From the NCBI RefSeq assembly GCF_000469585.1, contig NZ_AWNK01000007.1, positions 280,110 to 341,325 of the forward strand: a stretch of 61,216 bases of DNA. Direction: 5' to 3'. Position 1 is the first letter of the stretch; every line of letters begins with the position of its first letter. Made by a program: the position numbers and the translations under genes. This document shows, in pieces, positions 36,905 through 45,396 of the stretch. The notes under the pieces are model-generated. The model was not told where the DNA came from. It saw nothing but the letters and a program-made list of their open reading frames with translations, and made no database searches. Origin of the DNA: Chrysiogenes arsenatis DSM 11915. Its GTDB lineage: Bacteria > Chrysiogenota > Chrysiogenetes > Chrysiogenales > Chrysiogenaceae.

Positions 36905-37351
36905 ATGTCTGTAAAAGATCCCTATGGTGCATATAAGCGCAATGAAATTCAAGGCGCTTCACAAGGAAGATTGATCATACTTTTATACGATGGAGCAATA
37001 CGCTTTCTGAATCAGTCTATTGTGGCTATTGAGAAAAAAGATATTGGTGCGGCGCACGAAAACATCATGCGAGCCGAGAATATCATCGCAGAGTTGATGA
37101 ACTCGTTAAATATGGATGCGGGCGAAGTCGCCCAAAATCTCCTTCGATTGTATGAATTTATGATCTGGCATTTGATTCAGGGGAACAAGGACAAGGATAA
37201 GGATAAAATTACTGAGGTAATTGGTATGCTTGGCGATCTTCGAGTCGCATGGCAGCAGATTGTTGGTGGTAAGGTTGACGGGGAAAATGCCGTGCCTCCG
37301 GTTCAAAACGGTGGCGAGACAGCTCCGAAAAAACTTAACATATCGCTTTAA
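36905..37351 (+). CDS. fliS: Flagellin export chaperone FliS
   Basis: Encodes 148 residues. YGAYKRNEIQGASQGRLIIL and LYDGAIRFLNQSI are FliS signatures. The chaperone binds the flagellin C-terminal D0 segment and keeps it from polymerising in the cytoplasm. It has an extra Lys/Asp-rich stretch (NKDKDKDKI) and a longer polar C-tail than usual. It lies 56 bases after fliD and 15 before the D0-like small protein gene. Confidence 0.95.
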   Translation: MSVKDPYGAYKRNEIQGASQGRLIILLYDGAIRFLNQSIVAIEKKDIGAAHENIMRAENIIAELMNSLNMDAGEVAQNLLRLYEFMIWHLIQGNKDKDKDKITEVIGMLGDLRVAWQQIVGGKVDGENAVPPVQNGGETAPKKLNISL

Positions 37352-37366
37352 TCAAGGAGGAAGACA

Positions 37367-37660
37367 ATGAATGTCGATGCACTTGGCGGTGGGTATGTCA
37401 AGCGCTCTCCAGTGAAGCTCCCGGAGGATTCCAGGGGGGCGGCTCGGGAAAGTGGCAAGAGTGACGCCGCAGAAAAAAGTAAGCAGCTCAGGGATGAAGT
37501 AACCATTGAAAACCGACTTTCCGGAATGAGCTCGATTCGTGATGTAGAAATTGCGAAAACGCTCCTGAAAGATACTATTCGGGATATGGTTGGAAATTCA
37601 CAAAAGGCACTCGATGCCTACAAGGATGCAAACGGGTCATCACTCGGTAAGCTCTTGTAA
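37367..37660 (+). CDS. Small protein resembling the flagellin C-terminal D0 domain
   Basis: Encodes 97 residues, preceded by AAGGAGG. The first half is polar and probably disordered. The last 43 residues, from SSIRDVEIAKTLLKDT to SSLGKLL, align without gaps to the C-terminal 43 or so residues of bacterial flagellins (pattern S-x-IRDVD-x-A-K ... T ... A-x-x-A ... LL at the end). Since FliS binds exactly that part of flagellin, and fliS is the neighbouring gene, this protein may compete for FliS, regulate it or be exported. The likeness is seen in the sequence using the flagellin pattern I know; the role is inference. It is not flagellin: there is no N-terminal D0/D1. Confidence 0.75.
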   Translation: MNVDALGGGYVKRSPVKLPEDSRGAARESGKSDAAEKSKQLRDEVTIENRLSGMSSIRDVEIAKTLLKDTIRDMVGNSQKALDAYKDANGSSLGKLL

Positions 37661-37820: not shown

Positions 37821-37857
37821 AAATGGAGTAAGATCATCATCTTACTCCATTTTTTTA
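37821..37857 (+). terminator. Intrinsic terminator in the gap after the D0-like gene
   Basis: AAATGGAGTAAGAT (37821-37834) pairs with ATCTTACTCCATTT (37839-37852) around CATC, followed by a T run. The gap from 37661 to 37965 holds this terminator and the promoter that follows; the first 150 bases show nothing else I can name. Confidence 0.9.
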
Positions 37858-43845: not shown

Positions 43846-45396
43846 GTGGATATTTCCCCACTCATCAAGCAAGTAGAGCTTGTATCCAGTGATCTCAAGG
43901 TTGGTGAACTTCGAGCTGGGTCGCGGTTTGAAATCCAGGTAAGGGCACACCAGGGTGGCAATCAGCTTGCTGTAATTTTGGGCGGAAAAGAGATGGTAGC
44001 GAGCAGCGAAACCACCCTTGCTCCTGGCCGGTATATGGTTGAAGTGCAAAGCACCACACCGCAACTGGTACTTAAATTACTTCCTCAAACGACGACAGTA
44101 CCTCAAAATCTTATGCATAAACCGCACATGACGGCGTTACCCCCTTTTTTTGACACAAATGCTTCTGTGATTCGTCAACCACTTCCGCTGCCAACAACAC
44201 TTACTCTGCCACTGTTTCAAACATCTGTATCTCAAGCACCAACTATTCAGGTTCCAACGCCTCAAGCTCCAATTGCTCAAACTCCTACCGTTCAAGCACC
44301 TACAGTTTCTGCACCAGCTGCTCAGACTCCTACGGCTCAACCACCTACAGTTCCTGCACCAGCTGTTCAAGCGCCAACGCTTCAAACTCCTACAGTTCCT
44401 GCACCAGCTGTTCAAACGCCAACGGCTCAAGCTCCTACAATTCAAACACCAGCTGCTCAAACGCCAACGCCTCAAGCACCTACAGTTCAAGCACCCGCAA
44501 CTCAAGCGCCAACGGTTCAAGCACCTACAGTTCAAACACCAGCAACTCAAGTGCCAACGGCTCAAGCACCTATATCACCAATTGTTCCAGCGTCTCCACC
44601 GCTGATTATAAATTCGCTACATACACCTACTCAAGTGACCATGCCAATGCTTCCACTTGCTACGGAGATATTAACGATTATTGGACGCCCTTTAGAGCAG
44701 GCCATTCTCGATCTCAGTGCTTTAGCACGTGAGGCAACTGCCACTCAACGCGCGGCTTCTCCAGAGAGCGCTATTATTTCAAGTAAGTTAGACTGGAAAA
44801 ATCTTCAGCACGTTATTGCTAATAGTGGTCTTTTCATGGAGCGGCGGCTGTTTACTGGTGAAAAGGGGATTGAAGATGATCTCAAAATTAAGTTGATGAA
44901 GTTGGTGAGGAAATTTTCTGAAAGTGAACAAATCATGGGGGCGCTAACGCGCAAAATTAACTTTCTTACGAAAGAGCAAGTGGCAAATCTTGTTCTTAAA
45001 GAAAATGGAATTTTTTTGATCGACATACCACTTCCAACTGATAAAGAAATTCGACAAATAAAAATTCGTTATCGAAAACGTGGGAAAAATTCACCCGAAT
45101 TGGACAGTGACATCCTTTCTATATATGTAAATATGACGCAACTTGGTGAGGTAAAAGCCAATATATTTTTGGCGCGGGATGCTATGCAAATTGCCCTTTT
45201 TTCACAGCAACCGAATACGCATAAACTACTCGAAAAAACAGCCCCTCTCTTAGCGCTAACCATCAAGCAAGAAACAGGCAAAGAAGTGCAAATGCGTTGC
45301 GTGCTTGCTGATGGCCATTTGTATGCTGAATTTGATGAAAATTTAGTGCTTCTCGAAGCAATGCGGGGATTGCGCAATACTACATCTGACGAGTAA
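43846..45396 (+). CDS. FliK-like flagellar hook-length control protein
   Basis: Encodes 516 residues, GTG start. The N-terminal ~110 residues precede a Pro/Thr/Gln/Ala linker (about 130-244). The C-terminal part, with IDIPLPTDKEIRQIKIRYRK and YVNMTQLGEVKANIFL, fits the FliK C-terminal hook-domain fold that switches export specificity. Hook-length rulers need a long extended linker, which the repeats supply. It is the last gene of the flagellar cluster and converges on hemW. Confidence 0.75.
   Translation: MDISPLIKQVELVSSDLKVGELRAGSRFEIQVRAHQGGNQLAVILGGKEMVASSETTLAPGRYMVEVQSTTPQLVLKLLPQTTTVPQNLMHKPHMTALPPFFDTNASVIRQPLPLPTTLTLPLFQTSVSQAPTIQVPTPQAPIAQTPTVQAPTVSAPAAQTPTAQPPTVPAPAVQAPTLQTPTVPAPAVQTPTAQAPTIQTPAAQTPTPQAPTVQAPATQAPTVQAPTVQTPATQVPTAQAPISPIVPASPPLIINSLHTPTQVTMPMLPLATEILTIIGRPLEQAILDLSALAREATATQRAASPESAIISSKLDWKNLQHVIANSGLFMERRLFTGEKGIEDDLKIKLMKLVRKFSESEQIMGALTRKINFLTKEQVANLVLKENGIFLIDIPLPTDKEIRQIKIRYRKRGKNSPELDSDILSIYVNMTQLGEVKANIFLARDAMQIALFSQQPNTHKLLEKTAPLLALTIKQETGKEVQMRCVLADGHLYAEFDENLVLLEAMRGLRNTTSDE
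44233..44577 (+). repeat. 15-bp tandem repeat, 23 units (pentapeptide Q-x-P-x-x)
   Basis: Within the FliK-like gene, 345 bases encode 23 consecutive five-residue units such as QAPTV, QTPTA, PAPAV. Units vary at the third codon positions and by Ala/Thr swaps. The regular period keeps all neighbouring frames open on both strands, which creates false long frames here. Confidence 0.9.

Follow-up and report, generated by a model that had tools for sequence, protein, structure and literature searches.

The window, a 61,216-nt stretch of the Chrysiogenes arsenatis DSM 11915 genome, carries the genes for the filament cap protein FliD and for FliS, the chaperone that brings flagellin to the export gate, followed by a small gene that we refer to as X (Table 1). 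As a previous, sequence-only reading of this DNA had noted, fliS ends 15 nt upstream of the X start. The two genes share a reading frame. X has the strongest ribosome-binding site of the three genes, with a duplex value of -11.4 compared with -8.8 for fliD and -6.6 for fliS, and the terminator-like hairpin downstream, a pattern match only, would end a fliD-fliS-X unit.

Table 1. Features of the fliD-fliS-X locus (window coordinates)
Feature	Position	Strand	Basis
fliD, filament cap, about 898 aa	34152..36848	+	Pfam, NCBIfam
fliS, flagellin export chaperone, 148 aa	36905..37351	+	Pfam FliS E=2.3e-39, NCBIfam
Shine-Dalgarno AAGGAGGA of X, full	37354..37361	+	duplex -11.4
X, orphan flagellin-tail protein, 97 aa	37367..37660	+	ORF and homologues
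X N-terminal part, residues 1-47, mostly disordered by prediction	37367..37507	+	pLDDT mostly <60
Flagellin-like segment, X residues 48-97 (EN-x5-SSIRDV ... LL)	37508..37657	+	profiles, alignments, conservation
Terminator-like hairpin with T run, 3' of X	37821..37852	+	pattern match only

Several other features were recorded in and around this locus. FliD of the window exceeds the length of the FliD models it matched (465-672 positions), and a 516-aa proline-rich repeat ORF (APTVQTP...) at 43846-45396 is perhaps FliK-like. Across the phylum, FliS ends in a conserved motif with the variants KLNISL, SINFAG and KLNVAG (37331-37348 in the window; L009, L017-L038, L079-L084 and L089-L091 elsewhere), which is also present in X-less genomes. 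A YjfB_motility gene lies 3' of X at L009:1823-2008, with a similar ORF at L010:1861-2076; no such ORF was seen 3' of X in the window.

Homology of X to the flagellin C-terminus

Pfam and NCBIfam scans with the single X sequence returned no family, even at E<=1, and a first single-sequence scan of genome contigs did not find relatives either. The kinship to flagellin is therefore visible only by profiles. Residues 48-97 match the end of flagellin in an ungapped alignment and share, on average, 13 identical positions with four flagellins of the same genome (from residue 48 on), compared with a shuffle mean of 3.3; none of 20,000 shuffles attained 13. The match proposed previously, from S-S-IRDV at residue 55 to the terminal LL at residue 97, holds, and begins seven residues earlier, at E48-N49.

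Profiles gave a consistent picture. Searching the whole C. arsenatis genome with a profile of seven X proteins matched X and four flagellins, and nothing else. A 24-row profile, made exclusively of X proteins and run against all PDB sequences, returned only flagellins (29/29 matches at E<=10, best 4.6e-7), confirming the relation suggested earlier and including 1ory_B, a fragment crystallised on FliS; with a broader 13-row profile, flagellins again came first (best 2e-8). When aligned to a flagellin C-terminal profile by hhalign, three Chrysiogenes-type rows (a mere label for family f1) scored 40.7 against a shuffle maximum of 19.1 and the other X rows alone 30.8 against 26.1, with 0/400 column shuffles attaining the real score for either row set. 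Twelve members from other lineages scored 47.7 over 60 ungapped columns (P 1.8e-8, shuffle maximum 16.7); as they were found by X-built profiles, their likeness to X reflects selection, their likeness to flagellin not directly so. The shuffles and the PDB-wide background rule out a chance resemblance.

Homology of the X tail to the flagellin D0 tail is thus firmly supported at the level of sequence comparison, and the computation shows the flagellin-like half to correspond to the last stretch of D1-C, the spoke and D0-C. X resembles the flagellin C-terminal D1/D0 family (PF00700) over 50 ungapped residues, which include the EN pair, the S-x-IRD motif, an A and a hydrophobic terminus, but differs from flagellin in lacking the N-terminal D0/D1 and the D1 core, in its altered AQAN motif, in forming a clade of its own and in falling below Pfam detection. 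That X has no flagellin N-terminus had been stated before and agrees with the Pfam search, in which Flagellin_N was not detected at E<=1 in a protein of 97 aa in total.

Conserved residues and a possible FliW connection

The most conserved residues of the family are E48 and N49, invariant in 24 X proteins and encoded by the first codons of the flagellin-like segment (position 37508). They precede the segment bound by FliS and have no place in the portion that is ordered on the chaperone in the H. pylori crystal; by our count from the alignment, they correspond to E254-N255 of B. subtilis Hag. Further along, X A84, Y85, L96 and L97 match A500, Q501, L512 and L513 of H. pylori FlaB (our matching, counted back from the end), all of which are named FliS contacts; Q501 touches FliS L64, and its neighbours touch I67 and D69 (PMC7248283). 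Among the phylum relatives, alanine is kept at position 84, whereas position 85 is mostly H. The flagellin AQAN motif is replaced by AYKD in this X and by AHKK in most relatives. The LL end is FYPFE in most relatives. The phylum relatives carry V-M or V-L where Hag has V299-L300, a pair whose substitution almost abolishes filaments (PMC6070490).

As the portion ordered on FliS does not reach the invariant EN pair, we kept in consideration that X might mainly be a ligand of FliW (or FlhA), presenting the D1-C end of flagellin and thereby shifting the FliW-CsrA switch over flagellin translation. In B. subtilis, FliW protects residues 240-260 of Hag (PMC6070490), a stretch that includes E254-N255, and FliW is found in most genomes carrying X. 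We consider this reading rather improbable, however: FliW can be bound by the N-terminal 72 residues of Hag alone (PMC6070490), to which nothing in X corresponds; no FliW match was obtained in the X-carrying genome G010; and many genomes with FliW have no X.

Distribution of the X family

The gene next to fliS recurs in related genomes, as the sequence-only reading had proposed to check: X is present in 25 of the 51 genomes of the phylum as well as in other lineages, and fliS lies directly upstream of it at all 25 loci of the phylum. Overall, 45/51 genomes have fliS, 20 of them without X. In families f7 and f9, no X-like gene was seen 3' of fliS, most members having a different gene there. A second lineage shows the order fliD-fliS-X (G356, G389 and G390), and a third carries fliS, a flgN-like gene of ~150 codons and X (G196, G393 and G391), the middle gene of G391 matching FlgN. 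In G319, G182, G278 and G396, there are family members beside which no fliS is visible.

In other genomes, small proteins ending in such a flagellin-like tail were observed at L097:1026-1322, L109:50-343, L108:1501-1785, L110:1417-1731, L142:1717-2025 and L173:1804-2106, some genomes having several; the DNA seen around them shows no adjacent fliS, and one of them reads VENTAAAESRVED.

Phylogenetic analysis placed all 33 tested X copies in one clade apart from the flagellins (support 0.985), in a tree that is weak, being built on only 50-70 residues. There is no support for X having arisen recently from the flagellins of the same genome or having been converted by them, as the Chrysiogenes-type copies sit inside the X clade. 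X represents a conserved, unannotated family of ~100-residue proteins in several lineages, in which an N-terminal half predicted to be disordered is joined to a C-terminal half that shares ancestry with the flagellin end. The sequence-only reading had recognised neither this family nor the position of the EN pair ahead of the segment bound by FliS, and the literature searched yielded no description of an X protein.

We also considered X to be a functionless, decayed flagellin fragment or a chance helical resemblance, for which its shortness and the negative single-sequence family scans could be cited. This is very improbable given the retention of X beside fliS in 25 genomes, its ribosome site, the single clade across lineages and the profile statistics. 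In the same line, silent changes exceed replacement changes, with dN 0.43 and dS 2.4 between X and its L009 orthologue and dN 0.22 and dS 2.0 between the L009 and L010 copies (NG86; dS near saturation in both).

Structure models of X and FliS

Predicted alone, X forms one weak helix at residues 60-96, with pLDDT falling from 80 to 51 and a pTM of 0.26. We then modelled a fusion in which fliS is read through to X in the natural frame, with the stop taken as Q. Here, the X tail was split into helices at 60-76 (pLDDT about 89), 78-83 and 90-96; flagellin D0-C forms three to four helices on FliS and one in the filament (PMC7248283). Foldseek identified the Salmonella FliS-FliC structure 6ch3_B as the best PDB match of the fusion (TMt 0.91, TMq 0.60), with B. 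subtilis FliS-only chains at TMq 0.41-0.43. In the model, the X tail occupies the groove of FliS in the manner of flagellin, and bridge residues assigned to Y85 of X and L68 of FliS suggest that these two may pair. The docked tail was predicted with moderate confidence (block pLDDT 89, 89, 76, 52 and 47), and AlphaFold may have learned how flagellin sits on FliS from older entries, 1ory and 4iwb among them. The link to FliS drawn in the earlier reading is favoured by gene order and the fusion model, at the level that this model allows.

X might also be exported cargo, passed from FliS to FlhA and then either released from the cell or incorporated at low copy number into the filament as a cap, tip or junction accessory. 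X does lie in the fliD operon, its disordered N-terminus is of a kind seen in export signals, and FlhA recognises FliS loaded with flagellin (PMC6070490), which FliS loaded with X would resemble. What makes this reading unlikely is that E48/N49 are better kept in the family than the core-packing tail, and that most relatives have exchanged the LL end for FYPFE. Moreover, flagellin polymerisation needs the N-terminal helix, and X has no N-terminal D0 helix, the partner of D0-C in the filament core. The filament-cap accessory role put forward earlier found no support.

Comparison with known FliS partners and regulators

H. pylori HP1076, reported in some lineages only, competes with flagellin for FliS (PMC7248283) and is the nearest functional precedent. 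X is best read as its tail-end counterpart: like HP1076, it would be a non-flagellin protein sitting on FliS in competition with flagellin. The two differ in that HP1076 is longer, with at least 171 residues, and mimics D1, leaving the D0-C groove free, as seen in the solved ternary complex (PMC7248283; 3k1i, 6lea), whereas X, judged by sequence homology, contains the D0-C tail and has its gene beside fliS. When X profiles were searched against PDB sequences, the HP1076 chains in 3k1i and 6lea were not among the matches; 6lea_E, which was, represents flagellin.

In Salmonella, FliS also binds the small protein FlgM (PMC8527033), which has regulatory consequences, as FliS binding by X would. 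That X itself is an FlgM-like anti-sigma factor, as its similar size, its disordered N-terminus and the binding of FlgM by Salmonella FliS (PMC8527033) might suggest, is barely credible: X has no match to FlgM (PF04316), and FlgM is encoded by a separate gene in this genome (G000:C4:198327, E=1.3e-13) and found in 46/51 genomes of the phylum at E<=0.1. FliW belongs to the flagellin homeostasis network, of which X would also be part; X resembles the ligand of FliW rather than FliW itself, does not match PF02623, and FliW is encoded separately at G000:C15:14086. As both are separate genes in this genome, X is neither FlgM nor FliW. In another genome, a FliW match (G017:C1:2195000-2195344) lies within a 2726-codon open frame, which may represent a fused gene or merely a long frame overlapping FliW.

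X as a probable FliS client mimic

We propose that X is a FliS client mimic, that is, a placeholder for or competitor of flagellin, and assign this reading a probability of roughly 0.58; homology, conservation and linkage are computed, docking on FliS is modelled and the role is inferred. As the end of X copies the flagellin tail gripped by FliS, X probably stands in for flagellin on the chaperone or competes with it. Among the roles suggested by the sequence-only reading, a decoy or placeholder for FliS appears to be the best. X lacks the parts for filament building and would be made together with FliS, which is why we expect it to occupy FliS. When flagellin is scarce or absent, X would fill FliS as a placeholder and keep it client-bound; it would also compete with flagellin for FliS. 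The flagellin:X ratio would then set FliS-assisted flagellin export. Counted against this role are the replaced AQAN motif, the position of E48/N49 off the FliS segment, the 20 X-less genomes with fliS and the family members without a fliS neighbour.

More tentatively, such miniature flagellin tails, as a widespread family, might act as a stand-in that sets the amount of free FliS and thereby controls the export of flagellin by a route separate from FlgM and FliW. It is conceivable, at less than even odds, that X offers both the FliS-binding end and the EN region touched by FliW or FlhA, with the rest of flagellin absent.

The means by which cells balance the supply of flagellin against its export are under active study, and none of the Pfam and NCBIfam models searched recognises the X family. 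If the proposed role is true, a genetically encoded flagellin-tail stand-in, retained beside fliS in several lineages, would add protein-level control of chaperone occupancy.
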